64,000 nucleotides of DNA from the NCBI RefSeq assembly GCF_964204865.1, contig NC_135257.1, forward strand, positions 12,236,151 to 12,300,150, written 5' to 3'. Origin of the DNA: Styela clava (lineage: Eukaryota; Chordata; Ascidiacea; Stolidobranchia; Styelidae). Every line of letters begins with the position of its first letter. Position 1 is the first letter of the stretch. Under the pieces are notes generated by a model. It made no database searches and was not told the DNA's origin. It saw only the letters and a program-made list of their open reading frames with translations. The position numbers were made by a program, and so were the translations under genes. Positions 3,895-61,540 of this stretch are shown here, piece by piece.

Positions 3895-4485
3895 TTTTAA
3901 TAATGAACTGTGGAACGGCGTATTTTCACAAATATGCAAACCATCTATTGGAAAATCCTAATTCAGTGACTTACACCAGTGAGTAAAATACCCGCAATAA
4001 TTGGTCGCTTGAAGCACTACAGAGCAGAGCAGTGAACCACGACTACAAAACATTTAACTAAACTCTGCGTTTTCTACGCTTCAGAAAATTCAGATGTAAG
4101 TATATTTTGGTGGTTGGATCAAAGACCATCTGATTTAGGACAAGCTTGTTGGTGGATAGAGTCTGCTGTAATTATTTAGGAAATTGATGCGTAGAGAAAT
4201 TATTAAAATTAAGTTTTTATTAATCTATTCAAGGTTTCACGGTGTCGGTCGCGTATGAGAGGTATCCTTTACAATCTAGGCTACGTGTCTTTTCTGTCAG
4301 TCGAGTTTCCGCGTAGTGATATTCGCCGCGTTTTCTGGAAACAGTACCACCGTTATATTGCTGAGTTAAGGCAGAGCAGAAGACCACATTGAATTGGATT
4401 ACGTGCCGTTAATCTAAAGTTGAAATTTATTGCAAATCGATTTAACAAATGTTGTTATTGCTTTCGAATTCTCGGTGACGAGAAA
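3895..4485. promoter_or_regulatory. Shared head-to-head promoter region
   Basis: Only 591 bases separate the SMARCB1 start codon (minus) from the start of the YccV-domain gene (plus). Both 5' UTRs and their promoters must therefore lie within or near this interval. I see no clear TATA box. The second half (about 4240-4380) is richer in CpG than the surrounding DNA, as expected of a housekeeping bidirectional promoter. The transcription start sites cannot be placed from sequence alone. Confidence 0.45.
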
Positions 4486-5187
4486 ATGCCTGTTAACAGG
4501 TTGCAATTTGCGCAACTCACCCTTTTGTTGTTGGCCCTTCCCGCTCAGTACATATTGACCGAGTGGTATGGAAACAGATCCGACAGCGTAAGAGCCAGGT
4601 CTATTCAAGAGATCATACGTTCTTTAAAAGCGACTGCTGCTACATGTAAATCATGGATAAAAGCTGTTGGAACATACATGGCCAGTGGTGGCTCTTTCAG
4701 ATTAGATTTGAAAAAAATTAAAAAGCATCAGAAAGCGGCCAAAACTGCGCCTGGAGGGGAATCATTTGCAAAAGAAGTTTTCAGGTATGAAGATCCATCT
4801 GGAACTGGATATTTTTCTAAATCTATCACTGTACGATCTCCACGGCCGAAAGCATTAAAGTATAGAGTTGGCCAAGTCATAAAGCACAAGAAATATGGAT
4901 ACAGAGGAGTAATTGTAGGATGGGATGAAACCTGTAAAGCACCAAAAACTTGGATACTTACCATGCATGGCAATAACCCAGCAATAGTAAAGACACCTCA
5001 TTATTCTATCTTGGTTGATAAACGAGATCGCCAAGAAATACAAACAACATATGTTGCACAAGAAAACATAGACATTGTTACAAACATTGAAGTGCAACAT
5101 CCGGGCATATGGGACTACTTCGATTTTTATGATGGTGCTCAATACCACATGAGACCAGCTATGCAAGAGTTATACCCTCTTGATTGA
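4486..5187 (+). CDS. Single-exon protein with YccV/HspQ-like (hemimethylated-DNA-binding) domain
   Basis: An intronless reading frame of 233 residues. The ATG at 4486 was chosen because it has an A at -3 and begins MPVNRLQFAQ; the open frame runs upstream only to a TTG. Residues about 8-25 are strongly hydrophobic (LTLLLLALPA), suggesting a signal peptide or membrane anchor. The C-terminal half, from about residue 125, matches the YccV/HspQ-like domain also found at the end of vertebrate FBXO21. Recognisable blocks are YRVGQVIKHKKYGYRGVIVGWD-like (the YRG and GWD positions are conserved), VAQENI and a HP..W.YF segment. No F-box is present, so it is not FBXO21 itself but a short relative. In bacteria the domain family binds DnaA, Lon or hemimethylated DNA; the animal function is unknown. 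An AATAAA lies 27 bases after the stop. Confidence 0.85.
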   Translation: MPVNRLQFAQLTLLLLALPAQYILTEWYGNRSDSVRARSIQEIIRSLKATAATCKSWIKAVGTYMASGGSFRLDLKKIKKHQKAAKTAPGGESFAKEVFRYEDPSGTGYFSKSITVRSPRPKALKYRVGQVIKHKKYGYRGVIVGWDETCKAPKTWILTMHGNNPAIVKTPHYSILVDKRDRQEIQTTYVAQENIDIVTNIEVQHPGIWDYFDFYDGAQYHMRPAMQELYPLD

Positions 5188-9500: not shown

Positions 9501-12500
9501 GAAATGTTAAAATTGTACCGATAAATATCCCTGAGTAAGTTTGATTTAAATGCTAAACCTTTTTTAATGGGGTTAATGCAAGTCTTAAATAAATCAAAAT
9601 TTCAAAGATAAATTATATATATATACTCTTACTAAAGCTGTGAATTTGACACTTGACAAACATATTAATAAACTAGGGGTCGAATCTTTTCCCTTTTGAC
9701 ATTTTCGGAAGACTTAAAAGGCCGCTAATAACGTGCGCGATTGCATTTTGTTACAATCACCGTTGGTTTTCGTCAGCATGGCATGTTTTTAAACATCTTT
9801 ACGCCGGTGTTTATTCTCCCTAAATCAAAAATTTTCTTCGGCATATACATGTATTGTTCCACAATGACGACAATAATTGCTTTTTTGTTCTCGTGGGGAA
9901 TTATGAATTCAATGTGAAAAACATGTTACCATATAGTCATCGGCGACGAAATGCTAAAAATAATAATTAATAATAAAGAGGTAAATCCGCAACTCAAATT
10001 TCTTAATTGAAAAACGGCATTCTAAAATATTTATTCATCGTATATAGTAACTGCGAAATCGAAACACAGTCAATTGTGTGCGCGATTTACCTTTTTTTTA
10101 TTCTGAAACTACCGACGGTGCCGCATGCATTAAAATAAAGTCCAATCGTATTTTGCCCAGATCTTGTGATTTTTTAAACGGCGATATCTTGCTTAATAAT
10201 AATCTCGAGTGCAAAAGAACAAATCAAGTTTGACAAATTCCAAGATCGCAAAAATACGACTCCAATTTATTTATAGTTGGCAGTTTATCACGTATTTTAT
10301 GAATTTTTAGATTAGTATTCTTTCATTTTAGTAATCCTAATAGTAATCTCGAATGAAACTTGAGTAACTATGAGTACAATTGAATTATTACGACAAGACA
10401 CTTTAAATGCTCGCATCGGCCATACATTGAATATTTTACGCAACAGAAGTCTCGTTATCCGTTTTTTATAATCGCAAAGAATGTTGCGCGGAAATTTCCG
10501 ATTCAAATCTCCACCTCTTGAGAATCCTGGCTGCGCTCCAGCTTATAAATAATGTCATTTTTTAATTCCGCCTCTTTGCCATATTTCGAGGCTATATTGT
10601 TGTCACATTTTATCAAAGCTGTTATTGCTTCTTTGAACAGTTACAAAACTAGTCATTATTTTGAAAAGTAATCGAATAGCTCGCGGAGCCCCTGGGTTTC
10701 TCTCGCGGAGACCTGGGGCTCCGTACGGAGCACTTTGAGAACATATGCTCTAGAAGTCATGATCTGACCTTGTCTATCGGTAACGAATAACGATGCCCGA
10801 CCCTAGTTTTTCTACATATGACCTCTTTAGTTAAGTCACATCATATCATCATCGTGTATTTAAATTATTTGGGACTAAACGTTTCGTACATTCGATTCTT
10901 CGGCAATTGAACTGAGATACGGAAATTATGATTGCTTAATTTACAAGTAAAATATGTAACGTGTGTTTGGTGCTACAGGCGCGATTACGGATTGACACAA
11001 AATAAGCTTGCGATGTCAGTAAATTTGTACACTATTACCTCATGGGTGGTAATTTATCATTTTTGGCTTGTATCATCTCCTTGATGCGTTTTGATGATAT
11101 TTTGTTTATGCTTCGTGATCTCAACTGCCTAAAAGTATGCACAACAAAATAAGTGAATTTACGATGTTCGTTACCTAATTAAATCTTACAATTTACATAA
11201 TATCAAATGAATGTATATACTGTATAGCTTGAATACATATACAAAAAGGTACAATTTACTGACGTTACGAATTTCTCTTCAGAAATCGAAAAGTGGTGAA
11301 AAAAATTGAAAATGGGCATACGCACTGGACAATCGTTTACCTTTTACATTTGAAAACTATGCATACACTTTTATTGTTCAATAAAATCTTTAGCGGAGTA
11401 ATACTTCAAAATGTCATGAGTTTATTGAGGTTGCATACAATAAAATTTATTATATATACATGGAAGGCTAAAAAACGTTACCATGGTAACATTTTTTTTT
11501 GGCCCACCCTGTATATATGAACTTTTGATATAAATTGTCATAATGAAAAAAATTATATTTATTACAACTCATACCCAATATTCCGAAACCGGAATAGCAC
11601 CCAAATCCACGTGATGAATATAAAAACAATTGCCATCGGGAGACAAAATAGAAACCACGAAACAAAATTCAAGTCTTTTGATGATTCTTTCCCGAAACTG
11701 TATAAAAGAAATACATTAAATGTTGGCATGCAGGTTACGACTTTCTATTATTTTTTCACAATTTCATTTGTGTAGTGTATTTTGTTTTGTCTACGACTAC
11801 GCTAACACTCAAAATACCTTATTTGTCAAAATACAACAAACAGACTTGATGTGCAAATTCGAAACAAATGCATTGTTAAAAATATGAACATATACTTACA
11901 TATTATTTTATTGAAAAATAAGTAGACTGACTTATAATATTGAATAAAAGTTCAAAATTTGCGTTGGCGAAAATTATATCTTTGCTATTTCATATGTATA
12001 ATAAAAAGTGAAATTCGCGGACACAGACTGCCTGCGGCAATCGACAACTCTACACTAAGGGATTGTGGTTTATTTTTTATGCGCAGCTTTAGTATTAGAT
12101 ATTTTGTTTATTTGTGTAAAAATTTAGCATTAGTGCGCACATAGCGACATAGCCGTGTAGAATTCAATTTAAAATAAGGCCAGAATTGGAACGCTCAAAA
12201 ACTGATGAATATTTTTAAATATCGTTTTCGTAATATTAATTTAGTGCGTCGCGAATGTCACGATACTTACGTTGTTGCGAAAATTCCAATAGCCACAAGG
12301 TTTGATGGTGTTCCAACCGTTGTACATGTACCTCCAAATGTAGAAGAATATGTTACTGCGAGCAACATTGATTTTTCCAACTTAATCGCTTCTCCATCCT
12401 GGAGTATGGAAATTTCTTCGTTTATCTAAAAATTGATGAATAAGATTAGGCAAACACAGTTGTAATGAAATATTTCTGAGTGAAATCGGGAAAATAGTAA

Positions 12501-15500
12501 ATTTGTAAATAAAAGTTTTGAAAAATGTCTGACAAATCACTTGTGACGTTCTTTACAATCGTTTCTCTGCTAAAGATACAGAAACAGTGTTCTGTTATAG
12601 ATGTCCCAAAGAAAAGTCATTTGTGCTATCGATTGGGTTTCTACAAGACCAACTACTTTTCCGTTTTCTATGCTTTTGCGTCGGTGGATCCGTATGCATA
12701 TAATGCAAGGATGCTGTAGCAAGAGTGAAGATAACTATCCTGAGTAATTCAATAAATAGTCTTGCTGCACACTAACACAAATATATTTCTGTGACGTTTC
12801 GTCTGACCACGGTCAAACTTCCTCAGACATACATATTTCAACTAAAGCAAGAACAGCAATTGCAAGCACATTTATACAATGGGTGCCATGGCAACAAAAC
12901 AATATCATAACAATGTGAGTTACCCAAATTAGCTCACCGAAAATGTACCACACTCAGAGATAGGCTAGTCAGAGCCAAATTAAAGCCAAAATCACCTGTC
13001 AGCCACAATCCAGGTTTTTTTAAATGTGGAAGTCATGCATAACCTGCAAACATTCTGAAGAAACGAAAGTAGCGACAAACAAACAAAAAACTATTCAACT
13101 AAAAATTACTCAAAAAATAACGTGCAATACGGAAAACGTCGTCTGCTTAATAATCTGTAAAAAATGTGACATGCAGTACATTGGCGAAACAGGGAGGCAT
13201 CTGAAATATCGTATTTCAGAACACATTAGAAGTACAAAAAACAGAGACCTGGTCGTCGGGGCTCACTTTAACCAACCTGGACATTCACTGAAAGACTTTA
13301 ATGTAATTGGAATTGAAAAACTGTTTCAAGACCATATTTATCGAAAAACTAAAGAATCATATTTCATTCACCTACTTGGAACGCATGAGCCACTGGGAAT
13401 GAACATTAAAGAAGTTTAGGGCATTTAGGAACATTTTATACACCGTATATTTTCGTAATTTTACCGAATTTTTCTTATTTTTTTTATTTTTATTTTATTT
13501 TTTTTACCATGTATTTTTTTAGTGCAGTTAATTAAAATACAATCACCAATTTATTTATTTTTCAAATCCCATTGTTGTGATTTGTTATGTTGCCATGACA
13601 CCCATTTTATGAATGTGCATGAAACTTTCATGTGTTTTTTACTTTTAAATATTTAAACTTACTTAAATTTGAGTTGGGTTGCGCGAGACTAACTTCCTAT
13701 CTTTTCTCTATGCCTTTATGCTAGTGGATCCGTATGCGTATACTGCAAGGATACTGTAGCTGGAATAAACATGACTATTCTATTCAATTAAAGAGTCCAG
13801 CTGCACACTAACACAAATATATTTCTGTAACGTTTCGTCCGACCACAGTCAGACTTCCTCAGACAAGCAGTTTACAACAATCAGCATTGTTGTAAACTGC
13901 TTGTAAAATTAATCAGCATTGTTGTAAACTGCTTGTCTGAGGAAGTCTGACTCTGGTCGGACGAAACGTTACAGAAATACATTTGTGTTAGTGTGCAGCT
14001 GGACTCTTTAATTGAATTTAAACTTACTGTTGTTAATTAAGTTTTCAATCACCACCTGCATGAGTTCGTTAACTCACATTGTTATGATATTGTTTTGTTG
14101 CCATGGCACCCATTGTATAAATGTGCTTGCAATTGCTGTTCTTGCTTTAGTTGAAATATGTATGTCTGAGGAAGTTTGACCTTGGTCAGACGAAACGTTA
14201 CAGAAATATATTTGTGTTAGTGTGCAGCAAGACTATTTATTGATATAATATTGCTGGCATCAGTCCCAAAATATCAGTTTTCCCAATTCAGCACGGTACG
14301 AGTATAATGTGCTTTCATATAGCGCCGGAATCTAACTGAATTGAATGGCACTTGTTATAAGTTTGAGAAAATATACACACAGGAAGTAACTATCAAGAGA
14401 CGTATAATATTGAAAACCTTAATACCGGAGTTTCATCCTTCTTCGTTTCGTTTTTGCGATCACTTTCGGGTAAGAATTCAATTGTTTCTTGTACATTTTC
14501 TGCGTTGACTGTATTTTCGGGAAGTTCAAACACCTCGTCTGTGAAACATTATATTGCTAGTCAGAGATTTTTAAGGTAGTGTATTAAGAGAAAGATCCCT
14601 TCACCCGTAGTTTTGCTTTCTGTAAACTCTATCCTCCTATCCAAATGAACAATATGATATGTAGATTTTACTATATCCATGCTTCAAAAGATTAAAACTA
14701 CTTATTAATGCAAATCTTATAAATGAGTCGACTTGTATTGCTTACCAGAAATATCCTTTACTTCCTGCTGGGTCTCTTCGCACCTTTTCTTTGTAATGAA
14801 CAAATAAAAACATAGAGTGAATCGTAAAAAGAAGTAGCCTATTACACATAATGTACACGTATAGTCTAAAACGGAACCATTGAGTTTATAGTATTCAAAC
14901 AAATTTTATCAATGTTTTTCACGTGAGTTTACGAATTAACTCGAAGACTTGCAGAAAATATTGACAATTAGATCTAGACTTAGTGCTACTCCAGTAACCT
15001 ACAATTAACGTGTAACCTGAAAGCAGCATTGTCACAGCTAGAGGGGAAGTATCGCCAGTAAAAGAAGAGCTTGGTTACACGTTTTTTCAGTTTTTATCGA
15101 AAATTTTTATTCCGACTTTGTGAGAATAGGAATTTTTTAGAAGTCCAACTACAGCGCCTGAGGGTCAAAATTTCGATCTCGAAGTTTCCGACTCTGAGTC
15201 AACTTCCGACAAAAACACCAATAGCGAAAGAACTTAAATATGCTCCTCGTTTCGATGCTTGGATTGTAACATCTCAGCATTCGGTTTAACGACCTACGGC
15301 TTACTTTCTTTTCTGCTGTTGAAATTTCTCTGCATAAAGCAACGGTGATCGGATGCATGAGGGCACACGTTGAAGAGTTGCTCAACCACATAGAGAGGAA
15401 TCCAGTAATAAACATCATTCCTAACATAATCCTTAAATGAGAATTAGATGTTAAATATATGTGTATAACGATTGGCGTCATTTATCAGATTTTTATTTAT

Positions 15501-16963
15501 AAACAAAATGTTATTCAAGGTTTCTCGAAGATACTACGCTTTCAACGAGAAGTGGGAAGAGTATTCTGCAACATAGATTGTTTGAATAGCGCCAACGACG
15601 CTTATGTTTGCTAACTTGATGCTTAACCTCGAATTTGCTCCCAAACTGCTCCAGTAAATATCAATTAACGTGTAACCTCAATGCAGCATTGTCACAGCTA
15701 GATGGAGATATCGCCAGTAAAAGAAGAGCTTGGTTACACGTTTTTCAGTTTTTATCCAGTCCAGCTTAAATTTTTGTTAAATAATTTTGTTACCGTATTG
15801 GAATAATTCTACATTTCAATTTTCGAGACTCACCAGCATGGTCTCGACCCGAAAAAGAGCAACACCCGAAGCGCAAATCTTCTATGTAAATTCCATTCTT
15901 CTATTGCAATGCAGAGCACAAAAGCACCAAGAAAAAGAAAGCATACATGGCGCATATAACTCATCGACACCTTAAAGTAAAGTATGGTTGGTTAGGGTTG
16001 CTACAATTTGGTATTCACGTTTTTCAGTTTTTCGCCAAAGTGCGAGAATTTATTACAAAGCTTCAATGACATATGCACATGAGATTATGTCTTCGTGTGA
16101 GTGCTTAGCGTCCTAATTTCTTTTCGTAATGTAATTAATCTCTCCGTACTTTGAAATTAAAGTATGACTTAATTGCGTGTTGACTACTTTTACTTTGCTT
16201 ATTTTAGTTTATTGTGAGTACAACCTAATGCGATTTCGGTTTTGAATAAATCACTGAGCGACGTCGTAAATCGCTTTTTATCGACAAAAGAATGTTTTCT
16301 TGCTAAATACTTTTTTGTCAGCGCTTTCGTCTAGTTCTAAAATATTCGAGTCACACTGATACACTGACTATGGTAAATAAACTGGACACTATATACAGTA
16401 TACTATGTTACATAAACTGGATTCATCACTTGTTCTTGTACACGTAAACTGACTAAGTACAAGTACACTAAGAATATTTATTGTAGATACGTATTATTAA
16501 AATATATTTCAAGTATGAATTGTGTATTTTACCTCATCTGCAGTTTGAATCCCGAAAATAGGAAACAACAAAATTGGCATGAATGACGTCACTACAAGAG
16601 GACATGCTTCAGTTGTCCAGTAGACGCCCATAAGACAAATCACGTAACCGCAGCTTGAGACCTGTAATATGTTTGTATATTACACATGGTTTACATTTAC
16701 AAATATTAATTTCAAAGTTAATCGTTCAAAATAAAAGTTTTTTTGAGAAAACGATGGCATCAATAACGTATATATATTAAATCAATAAAAAATTTGATTT
16801 CGTGGACCCATATAAAAAATAATCGGAATATAATTTTTTTAGATAAATATCTTACTTTTGTAGTTCCCATTATCAGCAGCGGGAGAAACAGTATTGGTGT
16901 CAGTAGAAAAATCACACTTTTCTGAAACCTCCGAATCCAGGTGAAAAAGTAAGCCAAAGACAT
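6527..16963 (-). CDS. SLC13 sodium/carboxylate cotransporter, copy 1 (downstream)
   Basis: Fourteen exons encode about 606 residues, typical for SLC13. Exons: 16963-16856, 16661-16533, 15970-15834, 15431-15305, 14788-14746, 14538-14426, 12425-12271, 11697-11575, 11128-11039, 8904-8800, 8567-8348, 8001-7893, 7356-7163, 6694-6527. Every junction is AG/GT and the phases agree. Recognisable family blocks are WTTEACPL in TM2, EEWNLHRR, the first binding loop WLSNSSTCAL, FGGTCTTVGTPSNL, the second loop SSNLATTSVFLP and the signature SLPIATPANALAF. The ATP..NA form resembles the carboxylate carriers (SLC13A2/A3/A5) more than the sulfate carriers, but the substrate is not proven. Family members move Na+ with succinate, citrate or related anions across the plasma membrane. 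The C-terminus has N-glycosylation sequons (NNTNVT). Oddity: the first loop reads SNS where the upstream copy and most relatives have SNT. The introns are swollen by mobile elements. Confidence 0.93.
8766..8782. repeat. (AT)n microsatellite
   Basis: A short run of AT dinucleotides in an SLC13 copy 1 intron, close to the donor of the exon at 8800-8904. Confidence 0.7.
9431..10747. mobile_element. Non-autonomous hAT element with 8-bp target duplication
   Basis: A 1317-bp element in the intron between SLC13 copy 1 exons at 11039 and 8904. The left end is CAGGGGTTCTCAAACTTT. The right end, read inward, is CATATGTTCTCAAAGTG, a degenerate inverted repeat of the left. Both ends are followed inward by a GCGGAGCCCC-type motif. 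The flanks are the exact duplication CTCTAGAA (9423-9430 and 10748-10755), which fits the hAT 8-bp rule nTnnnnAn. No transposase frame is visible, so it must have been moved by an enzyme supplied elsewhere. Confidence 0.88.
12788..12830 (-). ncRNA. Candidate hammerhead ribozyme, outer left arm
   Basis: The minus strand reads CTGAGGA, then a 7-bp hairpin (GTTTGAC with GTCAGAC, one G-U pair), then GAAAC. This matches the hammerhead core CUGANGA-stem II-GAAA. Stem III would be minimal, as described for Penelope-like elements. Prediction from sequence only. Confidence 0.5.
12925..13419 (+). pseudogene. Penelope-like element: C-terminal linker and GIY-YIG endonuclease domain, decayed
   Basis: The reading frame from 13024 to 13419 (about 131 residues) contains a GIY-YIG nuclease domain. 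It has paired cysteines (CLIICKKC), then MQYIGETGRHLKYRISEH with the conserved YIG, R and H positions, then a HFNQPGHS block and an ending like SYFIHLLGTHEPLGMN, all typical of Penelope-like retroelements. Just upstream, in a different frame, TLRDRLVRAKLK and NPGFFKCGS match the linker between reverse transcriptase and nuclease. A frameshift therefore lies near 13030. No reverse transcriptase is present, so the insertion is 5'-truncated and dead. No usable start codon is claimed. Confidence 0.82.
13825..13868 (-). ncRNA. Candidate hammerhead ribozyme, inner left arm
   Basis: Same core on the minus strand: CTGAGGA, stem II GTCTGAC with GTCGGAC around a four-base loop, then GAAACG. It is the inverted partner of the copy at 13931-13982. 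Confidence 0.5.
13931..13982 (+). ncRNA. Candidate hammerhead ribozyme, inner right arm
   Basis: CTGAGGA at 13937-13943 is followed by a GTCTGAC/GTCGGAC hairpin (seven pairs including one wobble) and GAAAC at 13963-13967. The preceding TTGT can pair with the following ACAG as a short stem I. It lies downstream of the GIY-YIG fragment in the sense direction. Confidence 0.55.
14158..14206 (+). ncRNA. Candidate hammerhead ribozyme, outer right arm
   Basis: CTGAGGA at 14166-14172, a GTTTGAC/GTCAGAC stem II and GAAAC near 14192-14196, on the plus strand. Compared with the inner copies, both sides of stem II differ at places that keep the pairing. Confidence 0.55.
14989..15098. repeat. Small hairpin MITE, copy A (with copy B flanks SLC13 copy 1 exon 4)
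   Basis: About 110 bp, nearly identical to 15649-15757 in direct orientation. Each unit has an internal inverted pair, AACGTGTAACC near the start and GGTTACACGTT near the end, so each can fold into a hairpin. A trailing piece (CACGTTTTTCAGTTTTT) recurs at about 16016-16032. No target duplication was determined. Confidence 0.65.
15649..15757. repeat. Small hairpin MITE, copy B
   Basis: Direct repeat of 14989-15098 with a few substitutions and the same terminal ACGTGTAACC/GGTTACACGT inverted pair. It lies in the intron between SLC13 copy 1 exons 3 and 4. Confidence 0.65.
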
Positions 16964-32138: not shown

Positions 32139-33356
32139 CAGCGGTTCCCGACCTTTCTACCGTGGTGGACGGGTAAAATTAAATTAAATGTACACACTGA
32201 CCGGCAAAAAAATTGAAAAGAGTGGAACAGAAAATAATAACATATATTTGCGTAATATAATGCAATGTCGGGCACTCAATATGCTTCTAGACAAAAAAAG
32301 GCACACTTAAAACATTTTACACGAAGAAAAACTAGTGCGGGTAAAAAATTGAAATGGGTGAACATAAAATAATATCATATATTTGTGTAATGAAATGCAG
32401 TGCTGGGCACCCATTATGCGTAAGAAATGCAGGCATAAAACATCTCACCTAAAAAACATGTACATGCCAAATCATGAACAAACACAATTGAATTTGGTGA
32501 GAATTTTGCTGCTGTTTCGTTTCCAATATATGATGCCTCAAAGAAGTTTCTGCAGCACGTAGCTCTGCAGCGGCTGTAGCTCATTTGTTTGCATTGTTTT
32601 AATTAAAGCTAGTGATGAGGATGTTTTTTCGCAGAACGCATTTGTACCTGGCTGAAAATACGGACAAAAGTTTGATTGCTCGATTACTTAGCGATGGGTA
32701 TTCGTTATCAAGAGATATCCAAAATTGTGACAGTGGTTATTTTTTTAAATCTGGACAGTAAGGTAGAATCAAAAATTTAATCAAGCTTTTTCCCTTTCAT
32801 CTGGTCGTTTCAACATGTTAATCCCTCCGCAGTTGATCGACGCCTCAAACGAAATGAATTTACATTACAATGACAAAGTCGTCGGTAACTTGGCATCAGG
32901 CTCAAAATCCTACTGTGTATGCACAAAAGACTGGAAAATAACTAGGCAGACTATGTGTTTTTGCACGTCTTGTGATCACCTGCAGAGTCGCAACAACTTC
33001 ATATCTTACTGGAATATTATATTGTTCTTGGCTGTTTTCTTGTTTAAACAAAGAAATATGCATAGCGTTTTATATGGATGGTCCTATTAATTCAGAAAAG
33101 CACGCAGAACAGAAAAAGGACTCGTGCGGATTTTTATGTTTCTGAATCTTGCGAGATAAGATGGAGCGCATTCGCGATGAATCGGAGCCGAAAAAGCGAA
33201 AAGTGTAATTACTCGGCGCCAAGATGTCGCAATATGACGGCGAAAGAGGAATGGCCTAATAAACAAACGCAACCTCGTCTTCGGTAAAGCGATTGAGGCG
33301 GCATGAGAATAACAAAACAACGAAATTTCTCGCGGACCAGCGGTTGGGAACCTCTG
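32139..33356. mobile_element. hAT-type element relic
   Basis: Left end CAGCGGTTCCCGACCTTT and right end, inverted, CAGAGGTTCCCAACCGCTGG, which is the typical hAT terminal pattern. Flanks ACGTAGAT and ACGTAACA share six of eight positions, suggesting an old 8-bp duplication. The inside has only short frames (for example MERIRDESEPKKRKV near 33160) and no intact transposase. Its right end was later duplicated in tandem. Confidence 0.7.
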
Positions 33357-33452
33357 ACGTAACACTAAACTATCGTAACAGTTTGAACGAAATTTCTCGC
33401 GGACCAGCGGTTGGGAACCTCTGACGTAACACTAAACTATCGTAACAGTTTG
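33319..33452. repeat. 67-bp tandem duplication over the hAT right end
   Basis: Two adjacent, essentially identical 67-bp units (33319-33385 and 33386-33452). Each contains the hAT terminal sequence CGGTTGGGAACCTCTG plus flanking DNA ending in CGTAACAGTTTG. The near-identity implies a recent local duplication, much younger than the element itself. Confidence 0.85.
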
Positions 33453-35245
33453 ATATAATTGTTCTACACGCATGTAATCGAATAGTGGAATAGGCGCAAC
33501 CAGTCTTTGCTACCCTGCGACTATGAAGAATACAGTAATCCTCTGCACACAGTTGCCCCACGAGGAAAACTTGCGCAACTTGAATTCGAAATGTGAGAAG
33601 CGACGAAGCTGACGGTATAATCTTCTATCGGAGTATTTCAGCATGCGATCACCATCAGATTTAGCCCCGTATTTAAGCATATATACTAAGATTTATTTAT
33701 CAAAATTTGAACCTGTGTTGGAAAAGACCCAGTATTCTGCTGCTGATGTATTCGTCCCACTTCTTGGCATGGAAAACTCCATTACAATAGCTATCGCAAA
33801 ATATATTTTTTTGGTATTTGCTCTAACTCTTTTTTCTTCAGAGTAATGCGAAATTTCTGCAAAAGCTTTCATCTTCCGCTCCATAGATATGAGAAGAGGC
33901 AAAGCGCTATTATATTCGGTAATGTTATAAACTTAAAGAATGGTATTCGATAATCCGGTTAGGAGCCTGGTAATATATAAATGGTTCTTTTCATGTAATC
34001 TCGTTACTAAAAAAATCGCCGCCCGTCTTGTGGGTAGAGTCACTAGTATCCACTGAAACATGGCTAAAAACTGCAAGTGGACTTACTTATCAGCAGATGA
34101 AGGTAAACGTGGGGCATTGAGATCTCCTTAAAAGTGTGCATCTGTATGGTGAAAGAGGATAACACACCCACTCTAGATGCCTCTATTGATCAGGCTCTGA
34201 CAACTGATTATTACCTAGTCCTAGACCACAAGTGTTTGAGCCCCAAATTATAACAGTTTTATATATCAGTTTCTGTTGTGAACTATAGGCCTTAAAAACA
34301 GAACAAAAATGTATATGACTTGGTGCATTCAAAATTGTGTACACCATCAAGAGTAGCCAAAATGGAAACTAGAATATCGGTTAGAAACCGAAGACTTATC
34401 GATCGAAGGTTAGGGGATGCCCCAAAACAGTGGTCTTACTCCATAGTGACACCGTGTTTCCCATTACTAATTAATAAATAACTCGCTAATTATAAGACAT
34501 AATCCATCCAAAATCAATAGGCTTCTGATCAGAGCTATGATGAATGCAAATGCAAAATTTGGAGCGGATTCAACCTCGCTTTCGTGAGATATCGCGTGCA
34601 TCTAACACACAGACAAACAAATACCTATCAACATACTTAACGATCTTAAGATCGATAAGTACTAACTATGGAAGAATTAACATTGATGTATTCCAACTTG
34701 AGTTGCGTATAGAGACAAAAAGACATGACGATATTAAAACAAAAAATAGGGCTTAACTTCGGTTTTCAATCTGAAATATGCTAAAGTTTTTCCCCCAACC
34801 AGAGAGTATTAAATAAACATTTCAATTAGGATATCCACGGTGTACACATTCAGGCTCTTAGTTATAAAACTACAATCAATCCTATACCAACAAGTAGGCT
34901 CCGAAATTTTGCAAATCTGATGATTTAATTATATTAAAGTCTCAAACACCATAAACAAATACTAACACATAATTCTTTTATACATGAATTGTACAATCTC
35001 ATCCATGAGACAATATCTAGTTGTGCATTAGCATGGTGTACATAAAAATCAGAAAATACACACATTGTAGCTTAATCAAATGGAATATTTGTGAAGTGCT
35101 AAAAATGTAACATATTTTATGATTTGAGAAGAAACATATAACCATCTTGCAAAAATAGTTTGATATTTTACGGTTTGCCAGCACTTTTTGCAATTGAACT
35201 ATAAGCTGACCTTCAAGATTCACTGTACACCAACCATTTAACACA
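33453..35245. other. Intergenic DNA and AHCY 3' UTR
   Basis: No other gene recognised. The part nearest 35245 must include the AHCY 3' UTR. A minus-strand ATTAAA near 34923-34928 is a possible variant poly(A) signal about 320 bases past the stop. Confidence 0.45.
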
Positions 35246-36556
35246 TTAATAACGATAATAATCTGGCTTGTAGGGCCCTTTAACTGGAAGACCAAGGTAT
35301 TGTGACTGATCTTCTGTCAATTTGGTTAGCTCAACACCAAGATGGTCGAGATGTAATGCTGCAACTTTTTCATCAAGATGTTTAGGCAACATGTAAACTT
35401 TTCCCTTTGCATATTTGCAGTTGTCAAGATTATTTGACCATAATTCGATTTGTGCAAGAGTTTGATTAGTAAATGAATTGCTCATTACAAAGCTAGGGTG
35501 ACCTGTAGCACATCCAAGATTGACCAATCGTCCTTCTGCAAGTAAGATGATGTGTCTTCCGCTTTTCAGTTTATACCTGTCAACTTGTGGCTTGACATTT
35601 ATTTTTTCGACTGCATTTGCATTGAGCCATGCGACATCAAGTTCACAATCAAAATGTCCAATGTTACAAACAATTGCATCATTAGGCAAACTTTCGAATA
35701 TTTCTTTAGTAACAATAGATTTGCAACCAGTGGTTGTAACAATAATGTTGGCACGAGATGCAGCCTTTTGAATAGTTGTGACTTCATATCCTTCCATTGC
35801 TGCCTGCAATGCATTGATCGGATCAATTTCAGTAATTATAACTCTGCAACCAAAAGCACGAAGGGAAGAAGCACTTCCTTTCCCGACATCACCGTATCCT
35901 GCAACAACTGCAACTTTTCCTGCCAGCATAACATCCGTTGCTCGTTTGATTCCATCAACCAGGGACTCCCTACAACCATACAAATTGTCAAACTTGCTTT
36001 TTGTGACTGAGTCATTCACATTGATAGCAGGAGTGTGAAGAGTTCCCTTTTCCATCATTTTATAAAGATTGTGAACGCCTGTTGTTGTCTCTTCAGAAAT
36101 TCCTTTGATACCATCTAGATATTGAGAAAATTTTTCATGTACCAAGTTTGTAAGATCACCTCCATCATCTAAAATCATGTTCAATGGTTGACCATCAGCA
36201 AAAACCAAAGTTTGCTCAATGCACCACATGTACTCATCATCTGTTTCCCCTTTCCAGGCAAAAACTGGAACACCAGTTGCCGCAATGGCTGCAGCAGCAT
36301 GGTCTTGTGTTGAAAAAATATTGCATGACGACCACTGTACTTCTGCACCCAACTCTTTCAATGTTTCTATTAAAACTGCGGTCTGAATTGTCATATGCAG
36401 GCACCCTGCTATCCTTGCACCTTTCAGTGGTTTTGATGGTCCATACACCTTACGTAGCGACATGAGTCCTGGCATTTCATTTTCTGCAATGTTTATTTCT
36501 TTGCGTCCAAAATCGGCGAGACTTATATCAGCGACTTTGTAAGGTAACGGCGTCAT
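35246..36556 (-). CDS. AHCY: Adenosylhomocysteinase (S-adenosylhomocysteine hydrolase), intronless
   Basis: A single exon of 436 residues (human 432) beginning [19 protein letters not shown]. The ATG at 36556 was chosen because the open frame further upstream has only a TTG. The enzyme splits S-adenosylhomocysteine into adenosine and homocysteine with bound NAD, which keeps cellular methyltransferases free of product inhibition. Visible features: the substrate region [12 protein letters not shown] and [16 protein letters not shown], the catalytic stretch [16 protein letters not shown] (Lys, Asp, Asn), the NAD-binding glycine loop GYGDVGKG, the acidic end of strand two ITEIDP, GHFD with its histidine, and the C-terminal KPDYYRY. 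All domains are full length and no key residue is missing. The absence of introns is notable because every other long gene here is intron-rich; a retrocopy that remains functional is possible. Confidence 0.97.
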
Positions 36557-39435
36557 ATTTAACAATATCTCAGCTACGTGACAAGCGAGGAAGACCTGGT
36601 GGAATGGAGACCGCGACAGCGTGAAATACGCTTATATACTGCTGGAGGTTACTGAACCGTGACCTAACACTATTGCAAAACTTTTAGGTGGCAGGAGCAT
36701 ACAATACTATATCCGGATTGAACCCTTTTTTAGTTACTGAGGCTTAGCAAGCAGCGATTCCTAAACCAAGTACGATTATATAACATATAGTATTTAAGAA
36801 CACTAAAAAAATATTTTTGTCAACAATCAGGTAATGGCGAGCAAAATTACCTTAATAATAATCAGACAAATGTTATGTGGGCACGGTGAATTATAGGCCG
36901 GGACCATTGAGGTGGGGTTGTGTTTCAGACATTTTGTGTACATATGGGTGGTTCGATAGATAGTTTATTGAACTCGTAAGTGGACATTACGATCGTTTTG
37001 CATTTTATGTCGGCACTCTTCTTCTTAATATTTGAATTCTTCGTGGTATCGTTAGGAAAAAACGCCATTCTCATTAATTACTGGACCATTTGCTTTGAAA
37101 TTTGTCAGTGGTTGATGATAGATTGATGATGATTTTCGCCTAGGAGGCTATCATTTTTATTCATTTCAAATATTTCGGTGAGCTGCATGGGATTCGTTTT
37201 TTTGAGTGCTATGATGTTTTCCAAATTTGCCACTAGGTGGCGCTACGCATCCATATATTTGAGCGTAGCTCTCTTGTATTAATTAAGATAATTTAAATAT
37301 ACGCGCATGATTTAAATATACTGTACGTTGGACACGCATAAAATTAATTTTCAGCGGATATGTTTTAGTACACTCTCACATTAATAATTATTTAATGCTG
37401 TTTCATATCTATTTTTTGTATCCCACCGTTTACTATTAAAGTAGGCCTACATAATGCGAGTCCTAATTTTGCATATCAGTATTTAGGATCACAAAAATTT
37501 TAAACAGTTCAAGGCAAAAAAAATATTGTCAAAATTCTTAAATTTTATTGTCTCCGGGTAATGCCTGATTTATATCAAAAAAATACAGCGCTCAGGCCAT
37601 TGCACAAAGATAGAAATACATTTAGGCTTCAATTTTGCTTTTTTAAAGTTTTAATCAAGCGATGTGGTGGGGAATTTCTACTATTTGAATACCTGAAAAA
37701 CTAGAATATGATTTGGTATTCTGGATTTGATTTAAGTATTTTAGAATCGCCAATTATCCTACATTGCCCATCCCAGGGGTTCCCAACCTTTTTCGTTACA
37801 TTCCTCCCTTCGGCTATTTTGAAACTTGTTATTCTTCCCTTTCTATTCATAAAAAGTACTTTATTTATTCAATATTCAATAGATCCTTACCAGATCCTGC
37901 TTTAATTTCAAGTAGTTGATAATGTGTGCATAAATAAGTATTTATTGTAATAATAAAGAACTGGAGAATATTAGTAATACTACAGCAAATACAAAGCAAA
38001 ATTCCTCCCCAAGAACGAAAATATTCCTCCCTTGAGAGGGATCCCTACCTGGTTGGGAAACGGACTAGATAATAAGTTTGGACTTCTGTCCGTTTACATT
38101 ATGCATACTTGTTGTACAGTTTAAGAACATACAAATTTTTGCCAGTTTGAATAGATTTAAGATAGTAATGAATATAGTCGCTTTTTAAAGCCTGGTTTGT
38201 GATCACATTTTCTTTGTCCGTATTGCATTTTAAATAGGTTGGCCATTCAATTGTGCATGAGACTTCACAGTCTTACAACTTAAATTATTCTACGTAGTTT
38301 TCAACGGGTATAGGATCCGAACTATCTGAAAGAGAGGCTATCTTATATTAAAAATCGCAGTCCTATTTATTCTCAACTTAACACTAGTTGGCTGCAAAGA
38401 CTAGCGAACAGGTGTGACGGAGGTTGTCGAACGTGATGGAAAAAAAGTTAGGGGAAATTTTGGGAATGACATTATAGTGTAGCGAATGTGCATTGTGTAA
38501 CTATGGATTATAATGTATTTTACCCTTTCATATTAATAGCATGTAATATTTCACAAAATAGGCCGCATTATGTTTCGCAACAGCGATAATGCATTCGCTC
38601 CATGTATTGTCTTTCTCGTTTCGACCAATTTGATAACGTATCGTTTCCGGTTTGCCGAGAATGCTCTATAATATTGTGTTCTTGTTTCACTCGATATATG
38701 ACTTGTGATCTGACCGTAATCTTACTGCATTAGGAATTAAGTATATTCAATTTTATCAGCGTTTTCCCCAACAACAGCAGTCCACCAAAACGATTCACAT
38801 GTGTATTCCGTGTCCAATAATTTTAGTCTGGTTGCGAGCGGTGCTGTAAAACAAGGCGTGCAGCTCGGATTCTAATTTGAGAATGCATTCCGTAGACGCG
38901 CACAATTTTAATGATTGTGCACTGTGATAAATGGCACAATGTCCCTTTCACTCTTTTCATTCGTTTTTTAGACTCGGGAAGTTTAAATATAAAGTATATA
39001 TATATATAACTGTAGTTGAGACCAGTGAAGAAATTTGAAAACTTATATGCTTAGTATTGGTTGTACCTTGAACTATTAGCAAACTTAGTGTGGCTTCGCT
39101 ATGTCAGGAGCTATATAGACATAACCCAGTAAAACCGAATTATTTTTAAATGAATAAATTATTGATGCGCACCAAACGTACAACTACCACACTTTGTGCG
39201 AATTATTTTCCCTAAGTACATAAATCTCTCAGGGATTTAGACTTCTGTCCACGAAAAGAAGGCAGACTCACTTTGTCGGGTTGAAATCATCTTCGAAATA
39301 TAACTTTCTGTGAATCGATTTTTAGTCCGCAGCTACAGCGAGTGTGACAGTCTGGTATTGCTGATTTCACTGCGAGGAAAGTGCTGGTACAGACGATGTG
39401 ATATCAAGCAGGGAAAACAAAGAAGTTGCAAAGGG
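36557..39435. other. Intergenic spacer between AHCY and neuroligin
   Basis: The divergent spacer (AHCY minus, neuroligin plus) of 2.9 kb must hold both promoters. It contains a hAT-like relic at 37774-38067 and a TA run near 38996-39009. No gene was recognised. Confidence 0.5.
37774..38067. mobile_element. hAT-like MITE, ends only
   Basis: Left end CAGGGGTTCCCAACCTTT and right end, inverted, TAGTCCGTTTCCCAACC. ATTCCTCCCTT motifs lie inside both ends. I found no matching target duplication, so the borders are uncertain. Confidence 0.55.
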
Positions 39436-51400: not shown

Positions 51401-54400
51401 TGAAGAGCCACAATGCAGATAAAACTCCAAGCCTTTAATAAGAACGTCACCAAATGAAAATCCCGACAGTAACGAGACCGTTATCGAATGATACATAATT
51501 ATCTATGAATTAATGAATCGAGTAAAAGTAATATAAAAATTCGGAACACATCACTTGTTTTTTGTTTAGATGATCATCGGTGTCTCGCAAGGTGACGGAT
51601 ATGGATTGGTACGAAAACGAAATCCGGTGGGAATAATGTCAGCATTTGAAGTAACGAAACGCGTGTATGATCAGAAAGATTTCAAGATGGACGTCGATAA
51701 ATTTGTAGATGGATTCTATAGACGAGCTGGAACGGCGAAAGGGATTCTCAGACGTATTATAGAATTTATGTACACGGATTGGACACGCGAGTGAGTGAAA
51801 TAGATTTTTTACCGACAGAGGCGTTAATACAATTGGTACTTTATGACAGCGACAAGGCTTTTTACGAAAAGTGTTTTTAGGTAAAGTCTTACCCCCATGA
51901 GAGACGCCAAAGGATACTTACGATGTCACTCTTTTCATTTGTCAGGCGTTCATTTTCGTTGCATGAAAATTTTATTATTTTAAAAATCGTGAGTCACCTG
52001 TTTCACTTTGCATAAATGTACTCCCGTATGGTATGTGTACCAGGTTAGGGTTGGGTCATAATTTTATTCCGATTTTCCCTATTTTAGTTCTATTACGAGT
52101 TCGGGGTCTGTTTGTGTTGGTTAAGTGAATATAACCCCTGCCTATATGCTTCCGTTCCTTTACACAACTTGGTGTAAAGTAGGCGAACAAAATTAGTTAG
52201 CTCCATATTGGTTCTTCTGGAGCGACTGCATAAACGTCCACCGTCCACGGTTATAATACTTGAAATTCGAAAAATTTTGTTTGCACTTTTAAGATGCCTG
52301 ACATGTAAACATACGAACAAAATCTAAATCTCACAAATAATCAATCATTTTGTTTATATATCGCTCTTCTCAGATCAGACGAAAGAACATTGCGAAGATC
52401 TCTTCTTGATTTATACACCGACAGACAATGGGTGGAGCCAGTCGTGCGAACTGCAAACATGAATTTGAAGCTGGGATATTCTGTATATTTCTACACTTTA
52501 TTTCATCGAGCAGGTTTGTGCTACTGAATATGCTTTTAGAGAAGCATTTATAAATTAGGTTTCCTCTGTTTTGCAATTGATTCAAATGTTGGTACGATTT
52601 TATAGTCCATACAAGCGATAATTATAAGAAGTGTTCCACCATACTTAAAATCGGGGTTGTAGAGTGACCACTCTGGGATGAGAAAATTTGCAATTGACTC
52701 TGACACTGAACTCCGGACTGAATTTTTTTTTTGTCTCCGACTACAGCCGTAAACTGAAAAAAATATATATATATATATATATTGATTACTAAAACATTGG
52801 CGCACTCAAATCTCCTTTAATAGGCTATATTGAAAACATTTGGTAACGCTGATTCCTTTTGAGAGTCTGAAAACAAGATTGACTATCATAATCGTCATTA
52901 AAAATCTGACTCTGACTACCGAATCCGGGTAGTTTGAAATTCGACTCAAGCACCATCTTATGACATAACGGTACTCATGAATTTTGATCTACATAAGGGA
53001 TGCAATTTCTTGTTAATCGTCTCAGAAGTGTGACGATGTTATTGTTAGAGAGAATAGGCGTCAGGAATATTTTAAAAAAAATTAGACAAAATTCAAATTT
53101 GAAAATAATAAAAAATTATAGATTTTCTTATGTAATAATCATTTGTCATGAAATGGTTCGTTTTAGTTACCAATTCAAGATATTTGAAAAAAAAATCTGC
53201 AAAGAAAAAATTAATGCCAAAGTCTTCGAATATGTAAACGCATAGTCGTAATAAAAAAAAACATCTATTCATGGTGTTACACAATATAGTTGTCGCTTCA
53301 TTTTAATAAAAAGTATTCCAGTATGGAAACACCTAGTCACAATAAAAAAAAATCTTCTATTCATGGCGTTACACAATACAGTTGTCGCTTTATTTTAATA
53401 AACACCAAGTATTAATTAATTCACAGGAACCGATAGTGAATCAGAGTGGATGGATGCTGGCCACGGTGACGAATTACCGTTTGTATTCGGGTATCCATTC
53501 TACTCAGGCCAAGATGTTTTGTTTGGATATAACTTCACAAAAACAGATAGGATGATCAGTGCTGGAATCATGACATATTGGACAAATTTTGCAAAAGAAA
53601 GGTGAGTACAAACAGTCTAAATATGTCCAGTTGTTAGCACTGTAACGTTATATTATGTATGGAACATTATATTACGTTTATCCAGTAGGTACTAACTATT
53701 TTGAAGGCACAGTGCACTATTCTTTGGGTTGTCGTTTCGAACAAAAATATCTAACGCGCGAACCACCAATTTGTGCTATCCAAAGCTTATTTATTCTTAT
53801 TTCCCATTTCCACCCATTGTATGCATACTTATCTTAACCCAGAACATATCCCCAATAAAGGTTTACCTACAAGCCCCATACTTTAGAAAGGCTCTTTGCA
53901 AATGATCATTACTAGAAATCAATCTAAAAACACCCCTGCCAAAGAAAAAAACTGAACACAGGAACATATTCCAAAAAAAAAACATAACTTTTGTGCAGAA
54001 CTTCAAAGATTATGCAACATTTGTGTGCTATCATACACATACACAGGAATCCAAGTGTTAAATCAATTTTTTTATTATTGTAGAAGTAATTAAAAAATTA
54101 ATGGGTTCTAGTAAGAATGAAAGTAGAGATATTAGGAAACATGGCATGGCCAGAAATAATAGCAGAAGAAAGGCTTGTCAACAAACTATTATTTTACTAA
54201 TTTTGGGTTCCCCGCATTTTCACGTAACTGACGCACGCAAATGGATCAATGTCTATTGAATCGTCTATTCAACTCAAATCGAATTAAAAATGGCGGGCGC
54301 AAATAATTACGTTTCACGTAAATACTGACGGTACGTTTGTGGCTTCAATTACTTGTGAGCGTTTGCCATCTCCATCAACATTCTATTATTAATTAATGCA

Positions 54401-60135: not shown

Positions 60136-61540
60136 TGCAAATTCAATTCAATTCGTTTATTACTCCAGACCGCCGTGGTCCATATAAAAACAACACAACA
60201 AGTAAACATAAGCAAAACAAAAGTAACACAATAAATACATAAAATACCTGATATGACAATCAGATTCACAGTAAGTCTCAAAAAAGAGTTATACTATAGC
60301 AATTTAAGAGACCAAAAGTGAGGTATAGAATCTAAGATAGCCCGTAACAAACAGTATCTGGTAATCAAATAATGATAGTAATAGAATGTTATTGGAGTTC
60401 CTGCATCTCGTCATGAACAACCACAGATTTTTTCTATGGAGTGCTTCGAAAGAGGGAATGTTCCCAGATACCATTTTGTGACAGACACTATCAGATCTAG
60501 AGACACAGTGAATTACGCGATAAGCATTATTATATGAAATTTTAACTTTTTTATAACTATAATTATTGAAAAACAACCAGAGCTGGCAGTTATAAATCCT
60601 ACAACAATACGTCCTAAATAAAAGATTTTTCACAGTAGTGGAACAATTGACAAATTTTTTCCAAATTGTATGGGCTATAAAATAAATTGATTTATACTGA
60701 CGATTCAAGTCAAGGTCATCTCTAAGATCACTGGATAGGAAAACACCAAGATATTTAGTGGACGAAACATAAGTCAATACAGAATTACGAAGTTTGATAT
60801 CAGGCAAATTATTCAGCCTAAACTTTTTATTCTGGATACACATACAAACAGATTTTTTCGAGTTGTACAAGATGTCATGTTCAATAGAGTATTTATCGCA
60901 TATGTTAAGTAAACGTTGAAGACCTTTGGCTGAAGGTGAAATGCAACACATGTCATCAGCATAAAAAAATGATGGATAATATTGTTATTTGCTACACATC
61001 CAATGGTCTATTGATTCAACTTAACAGAAAGGTCATCCATGAAAACAGCATATAAATATGGACTTAATATACTACCTTGCTTGGTACCATTATGAACAGA
61101 GAAAGGATCTGACACACTGCTACCCCAACTAACAAACATGGATTGATTACGATACATGTGTACAATCAGCGATAAAAATATTTTGGGGATTCTTCTGTTG
61201 ATTAATTTACGAAATAGAGTCCAGTGATTAACTTTATCAAAAGCTTTAGTGGCATCCAAAAAAGCTATGAAAACTGGTGATGATTTTTTGGAATAATAAG
61301 TAGCTAGTAGCTAGATGCTTTATTGTAAAAATGCACATGTCAGTCTCGTGACCAGGCTTGAAACCAAACTGGTTGTGAGATGTAGTTAAGTAAGACTCAG
61401 TGTTATTTGAAATGTGTTTTTCAAAAATTCTTAAATAAGACAGAGGCCACTGCAATAGGCCTGTAGTTACTTGCACTACAAATTTCACCATTTTTGTTTT
61501 TAATTACAGGCTGAATAGAACTTGAAAGGAAGGATAACTA
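60136..61540 (-). pseudogene. 5'-truncated non-LTR retrotransposon (LINE) reverse transcriptase
   Basis: Minus-strand pieces of one reverse transcriptase in shifting frames. Near 61480 is SNYRPIAVAS, then IFEKHISNN and HNQFGFKPGHETDMCIF, then MDATKAFDKVNHWTLFRKL (61008-61259 frame), NGTKQGSILSPYLYAVFMDDL, a broken catalytic YADD region near 60960, and then KYLGVFLSSDL in the 60304-60951 frame. These are RT fingers/palm motifs in correct order, with frameshifts and no endonuclease domain, so the copy is dead and 5'-truncated. The 3' end at about 60136 has a short AATTG-type repeat tail instead of poly(A), which suggests a CR1/L2-like clade. The exact clade is not established. Confidence 0.85.

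Follow-up and report, generated by a model that had tools for sequence, protein, structure and literature searches.

In the genome of the ascidian Styela clava, four hammerhead-like ribozyme cores lie in nested inverted repeats within a 64-kb stretch of DNA (contig NC_135257.1; the whole stretch is referred to here as the window), and the question is whether they form a self-cleaving device or are parts inherited from mobile elements. The second answer is the one that we favour. It is very probable that the locus consists of two nested, defective insertions of Penelope-like elements (PLEs), that the four cores are minimal hammerheads inherited with them and not a device assembled at this place, and that a transcript of the whole locus would hide the cores. 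The features on which this reading is based are listed in Table 1.

Table 1. Features of the Penelope-like locus, with positions counted in the window.
Feature	Position	Strand	Remarks
Outer insertion, truncated	~12633-14243		Inverted pseudo-LTR, frameshifted C-terminal ORF with GIY-YIG remnant, direct pseudo-LTR
Outer inverted pseudo-LTR end	12633-12922	-	blastn 98.9% to 14070-14243 over 174 nt (12749-12922); 78.7% to 13674-13878
Hammerhead-like core, outer left	12796-12826	-	H17 = C at 12793; predicted cut between 12793 and 12792
C-terminal PLE ORF remnant, 5'-truncated, frameshifted	12928-13419	+	PLE-like cysteine linker, then, in a different frame (ORF 13024-13419), putative GIY-YIG remnant
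3' untranslated / pseudo-LTR upstream part, diverged	13519-13650	+	13519-13624 75% identical to 14024-14132
13-bp target-site duplication, left copy	13651-13663	+	ATTTAAACTTACT
Inner insertion	13664-14015		Two pseudo-LTR ends (inverted, direct), hairpin-joined; 352 bp between duplications, without body or ORF
Inner inverted pseudo-LTR end with extension	13664-13881	-	
Hammerhead-like core, inner left	13832-13862	-	Predicted cut between 13829 and 13828
Inner hairpin junction	13863-13936	.	ATTGTTGTAAACTGCTTGT three times, one of them inverted
Inner direct pseudo-LTR end	13918-14015	+	
Hammerhead-like core, inner right	13937-13967	+	Predicted cut between 13970 and 13971
13-bp target-site duplication, right copy	14016-14028	+	ATTTAAACTTACT
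Direct pseudo-LTR of outer insertion	14024-14243	+	First 5 bases common with the target-site duplication
Hammerhead-like core, outer right	14166-14196	+	Predicted cut between 14199 and 14200

Occurrence and structure of the hammerhead-like cores

The earlier note on this DNA had described four hammerhead-like cores between positions 12749 and 14243, each with CTGAGGA, a 7-bp stem II and GAAAC. All four were recovered within these limits with every one of these elements in place, two sense cores on each strand. A minimal-motif pattern (CTGANGA ... GACGAAAC) gave 4 matches in the 64-kb window versus none in 100 dinucleotide shuffles, and a stricter descriptor (CTGANGA, no more than one inserted base, 4 bp or more of stem II, GAAACGTH) returned exactly the same four cores and nothing in 200 Markov-simulated windows. 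When applied to 390,534 bp of viral-contig DNA, a control biased towards hits since its 50 stretches had been preselected by a similar pattern, the stricter descriptor found one match, without any stem I pair. Stem II reached 4 bp or more in only 2 of these 50 stretches, which match the minimal-motif DNA pattern; neither was taken for a relative, and the set later served purely as background DNA.

In all four cores CUGAGGA is followed by a single additional A, then by a stem II of 7 bp that closes a 4-nt loop, and finally by GAAACGU and H17, the last being C in one core and U in three. Every copy contains the hammerhead core CUGANGA ... GAAA, has UH where cleavage is expected and carries one A inserted after A9, between CTGAGGA and stem II, a base that the earlier note had not mentioned. 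Base 7 of the hammerhead is free to vary. An extra core nucleotide in a viroid hammerhead is reportedly the subject, by its title, of a 2001 paper of De la Pena and Flores, so that an additional base is said to be tolerated. Across the four cores, 15 of the 16 core columns are invariant and the only variable one is H17, where C and T both fit. The 5' flank has 10 invariant columns out of 27 and the 3' flank 34 out of 43; since the 3' flank is conserved too, the conservation of the core is not proof of a ribozyme.

Read in the sense direction, all four cores form the complete stem II (7 of 7 pairs), whereas each of them falls one pair short (6 of 7) when the antisense strand is read. The differences between the outer and inner pairs are as described in the earlier note, which had regarded them as the mark of selection on RNA structure, and for this claim the outcome is weak to modest: both changes keep a pair, but they are only two positions, and both are one-sided wobble transitions. 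Stem II allows 14 single transitions, 8 of which leave the pair intact; counting single changes of every kind, 42 are conceivable and again 8 do so. This means that two pair-keeping changes out of two are expected by chance in about one case in three (33%) if only transitions are counted, or in about 4% if all changes are. We have therefore not accepted stem II covariation as proof of selection; the pattern seen in these four sequences is suggestive.

Stem I adjoining the core comprises 3 bp in the outer units and 4 bp, including one G-U, in the inner units, and it is certain for these first 3-4 pairs only. More distal pairing was no better than in shuffled flanks, which did as well in 315 (outer left), 875 (inner left), 520 (inner right) and 318 (outer right) of 1000 shuffles, and the distal helix of the outer units was dropped as evidence after this comparison. 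If the cores are read by analogy with minimal PLE hammerheads, A15.1-C15.2 and G16.2-U16.1 would be neighbours, with no loop closing helix III. Because ACGU is its own complement, this helix could form between two copies arranged in tandem.

Minimal type I hammerheads of PLEs are reportedly treated by Cervera and De la Pena in 2014 and by Lunse, Weinberg and Breaker in 2017. In the available text of three publications they are described as lacking helix III (PMC6155905, PMC7761336, PMC7229834), and two of these texts add that they possibly cleave as dimers (PMC6155905, PMC7761336), which agrees with the proposed pairing between tandem copies. The cores in Styela clava have in common with them, as far as described there, the core itself, the want of a separate helix III, the location in pseudo-LTRs and the occurrence in more than one copy, and may differ from them in that every one of the four has an additional A behind A9.

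Rfam hammerhead families had no match at the gathering threshold in the 64-kb window, and the 11 weak matches obtained at E<=10 in 12600-14300 included no hammerhead; the microRNA-family matches of that scan were taken as reflections of the long palindrome. Formally this goes against the earlier note, which had made its reading depend on a covariance-model hit. The missing match is nevertheless not decisive, because Penelope variants lack helix III and the Rfam models, as we infer, overlook such short motifs.

A lesser but serious possibility is that the nested PLE insertions are real and their cores non-catalytic, stem II having been retained for binding or for initiation, or because the copies share a recent ancestor. 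This overlaps with the explanation that we favour and differs from it on catalysis alone. The missing Rfam match, the extra A beside the core, a stem I confident for so few pairs, the conserved 3' flank and two wobble changes too few to show selection are all in line with it, but the four copies hold all core bases expected of the PLE type, both observed stem II changes belong to the minority that keeps a pair, and, in the available text of a review, all PLE sequences then at hand are said to show the motif (PMC6155905).

Two nested insertions

The inverted repeats are nested in the way that the earlier note had laid out, with outer arms of 179 nt (12749-12927/14065-14243) and inner arms of 100 nt (13782-13881/13918-14017), each pair 98% complementary. 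A blastn search (E<=0.01) detected no further copies of 12401-14500 elsewhere in the window. The inner pair of ends is exactly bounded by a perfect 13-bp duplication, a length reached by only 1 of 2000 random placements. For the outer insertion, whose left border is putative since position 12633 is the end of the homology with the inner copy, no duplication longer than 6 bp was found between 14236-14266 and 12350-12660. An 8-bp match of 12603-12610 to 14263-14270, about 20 bases outside both outer ends, is probably due to chance.

In both insertions the direct (+) arms extend for 44-45 nt beyond the predicted cut, whereas the inverted (-) ends pass it by 165 nt in the inner insertion and by at least 160 nt in the outer one, where the homology with the inner copy ends; the outer inverted end reaches at least 116 nt past the point at which its direct copy stops. 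By analogy, these long extensions of the - arms are reminiscent of the optional 'tails' of published Penelope copies. That the inverted ends are about 116-120 nt longer past the hammerhead than the direct ends in both insertions (a minimum in the outer one) could also reflect strand-specific fixed start sites of reverse transcription, an idea that we consider doubtful and rather unlikely.

The proposed history of the locus starts from an intact PLE, in which the pseudo-LTR near the ORF start carries a minimal type I hammerhead. In a tandem transcript there would be a pair of such hammerheads, which could cleave as a dimer or be helped by the protein of the element. At the locus described here, each insertion ends on both sides with the same outward-pointing pseudo-LTR/hammerhead end, head to head. 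These paired ends presumably arose from two cDNAs, for which either each of the nicked target strands served as a primer or self-priming took place, and which were then joined in the middle of the insert. Two cDNAs that set out from the two borders and met inside would account for such ends. The outer insertion would have kept the endonuclease end of its ORF, and the inner one would have entered the 3' part of the outer with the 13-bp duplication and kept its ends only.

It is very unlikely that the inverted arms stem from recombination or an assembly error and not from retrotransposition. The want of a clear duplication around the outer pair would fit such an origin; however, the 13-bp duplication exactly bounds the inner pair, the right ends coincide in both insertions, and inverted pseudo-LTRs are described in PLE copies, including one without duplication, in the available text on Adineta vaga (PMC3846280).

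A remnant of a Penelope-like reading frame

Between the outer arms, the + strand reads LVRAKLKPKSP...FFKCG in one frame and CITCKH...YIGETGRHLKYRISEH...KESYFI in another, which ends at 13419. The former stretch, which we take to be a PLE-like linker, gave no Pfam match as a piece of 39 aa. As to the latter, the Penelope GIY-YIG fragment of the earlier note has a putative counterpart at 13024-13419, with a score to GIY-YIG (PF01541) of 18.4 bits and an E-value of 0.0026, which is below the Pfam cut-off of 22.6 bits. A PDB search (E<=10) gave no match to GIY-YIG and NCBIfam likewise none, only two weak unrelated matches. Eleven pieces (10 of the 14 stop-to-stop frames of at least 45 aa in 12600-14300, plus the 39-aa linker) matched no RT family, and a visual inspection of 12400-14500 in all six frames showed no telomerase-like RT domain. 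In two mainly viral/prokaryotic DNA collections, 4 and 31 pattern-matched stretches were obtained as candidate relatives of the endonuclease remnant, 0 of which were confirmed by tblastn.

On these results the locus is taken as a fragment of a PLE and not as an intact element, and the absence of RT is consistent with a truncated copy. As judged from its reading frames, the PLE copy is dead and truncated. The core sequence and the neighbouring PLE-type ORF remnant together support the claim that the hammerhead-like motifs sit in Penelope pseudo-LTRs.

Predicted folding and the prospect of self-cleavage

In the predicted fold of 12749-14243, on both strands, every one of the four cores is paired with its antisense arm over all but one of its bases (30 of 31), and in that of 13782-14017 both inner cores are paired with their antisense arms in the same way (30/31 bases). 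When the units were folded in isolation, the unconstrained minimum lay 1.3-2.7 kcal/mol below the hammerhead-constrained fold in all four. These folds are minimum-energy predictions that ignore co-transcriptional folding; since the arms are so near to perfect complementarity, the cores are expected to be hidden even so. According to the earlier note, whichever strand is transcribed, the RNA would comprise two units able to cleave themselves. The two sense cores per strand are there, but as units they are sequestered in the predicted fold, and since the arms would lock all four cores in duplex, self-cleavage of a whole-locus transcript appears unlikely.

That the cores on both strands form a functional unit that self-cleaves host-gene transcripts, or makes circular RNAs like retrozymes, is hardly credible: the near-identity of the core columns, with a fitting base at the variable one, and the two cores per strand speak for it, but in the predicted fold of either strand no core is left free by its almost perfectly matching antisense arm, the inner insert has only 352 bp between its duplications and no body, PLE variants lack helix III, and hammerhead mutants of PAc left in vitro insertion unaffected, according to the available text (PMC11167929).

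Comparison with known Penelope-like systems

The earlier note had called the double palindrome less ordinary. This has no support, since inverted pseudo-LTRs, palindromes at the junctions, target-site duplications and secondary insertion have all been published, as the available text on Adineta vaga makes clear (PMC3846280). There, an inverted pseudo-LTR completes the insert of Penelope copies, which are mostly head to head and in some cases 5'-truncated; a tail occurs on one inverted pseudo-LTR, the palindromic junctions are explained by self-priming, the duplications measure 8, 9 and 10 bp, with none in one truncated copy, and one Penelope is inserted into another. The locus in Styela clava has in common with Pen2a and Pen2, as far as they are described in that text, the inverted pseudo-LTRs, the head-to-head order, a short target-site duplication, a tail, a junction palindrome and a secondary insertion. 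It differs from them in the 13 bp of the duplication at the inner insertion, in an inverted-end extension of about 116-120 nt versus a 31-bp tail, in an ORF that is only a C-terminal remnant, and in an inner insertion that has no ORF and is seated in the 3' region of another copy. Of the features of PLEs, the locus thus exhibits direct and inverted pseudo-LTRs, with a tail longer than those published, and, at the inner insertion, a target-site duplication of the short, variable kind.

For PAc, a Poseidon element of Anolis carolinensis, the available text reports that the protein cuts and extends both target strands and prefers AT-rich sites, that reverse transcription starts at fixed internal sites with no apparent strand difference in vitro, and that the hammerhead requires added protein to cleave and is dispensable for insertion in vitro (PMC11167929). 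Within the limits of that text, a PLE with a hammerhead near the ORF start and a GIY-YIG domain (putative in the copy described here), a preference for AT-rich sites, the cutting and extension of both target strands and fixed starts of reverse transcription, giving fixed ends, may be regarded as common to both systems. PAc has a full-length active protein, whereas the copy described here has no RT and a frameshifted ORF remnant.

Other features of the window

To the right of the Penelope locus, direct repeats at 14986-15098 and 15646-15756, about 660 bp apart, share 60 nt at 87%, 42 nt at 95% and 16 identical nt, and are perhaps another dispersed or duplicated element. Two tandem copies each were found of a 67-bp unit at 33319-33453 (100% matches) and of a 92-bp unit at 53219-53402 (86% matches). 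An ORF of 439 aa for S-adenosylhomocysteine hydrolase at 35246-36565 (-; Pfam AdoHcyase, E 1.4e-137) is uninterrupted and is therefore perhaps an intronless gene or a retrocopy. An ORF at 4420-5187 (+) has a YccV-like (hemimethylated DNA-binding) domain (E 1.8e-30). A 215-aa ORF at 60304-60951 (-), with no Pfam match at E<=1, presumably resembles the end of a LINE reverse transcriptase.

Significance

The locus is an unremarkable example of something already described, namely PLE hammerheads in their known mirror-image layout, and its importance hardly goes further than annotation. What it contributes is one more example of minimal hammerheads in Penelope pseudo-LTRs, unreported here by the Rfam covariance models, and a clear nested double-ended insertion with its target-site duplication. 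If the idea of strand-specific start sites were true and the same structure repeated in other copies, the inverted pairs would record such sites for the two target strands. Our results also suggest why inverted ribozyme copies ought to be left out of counts of working units: the core would be hidden by the antisense arm beside it.
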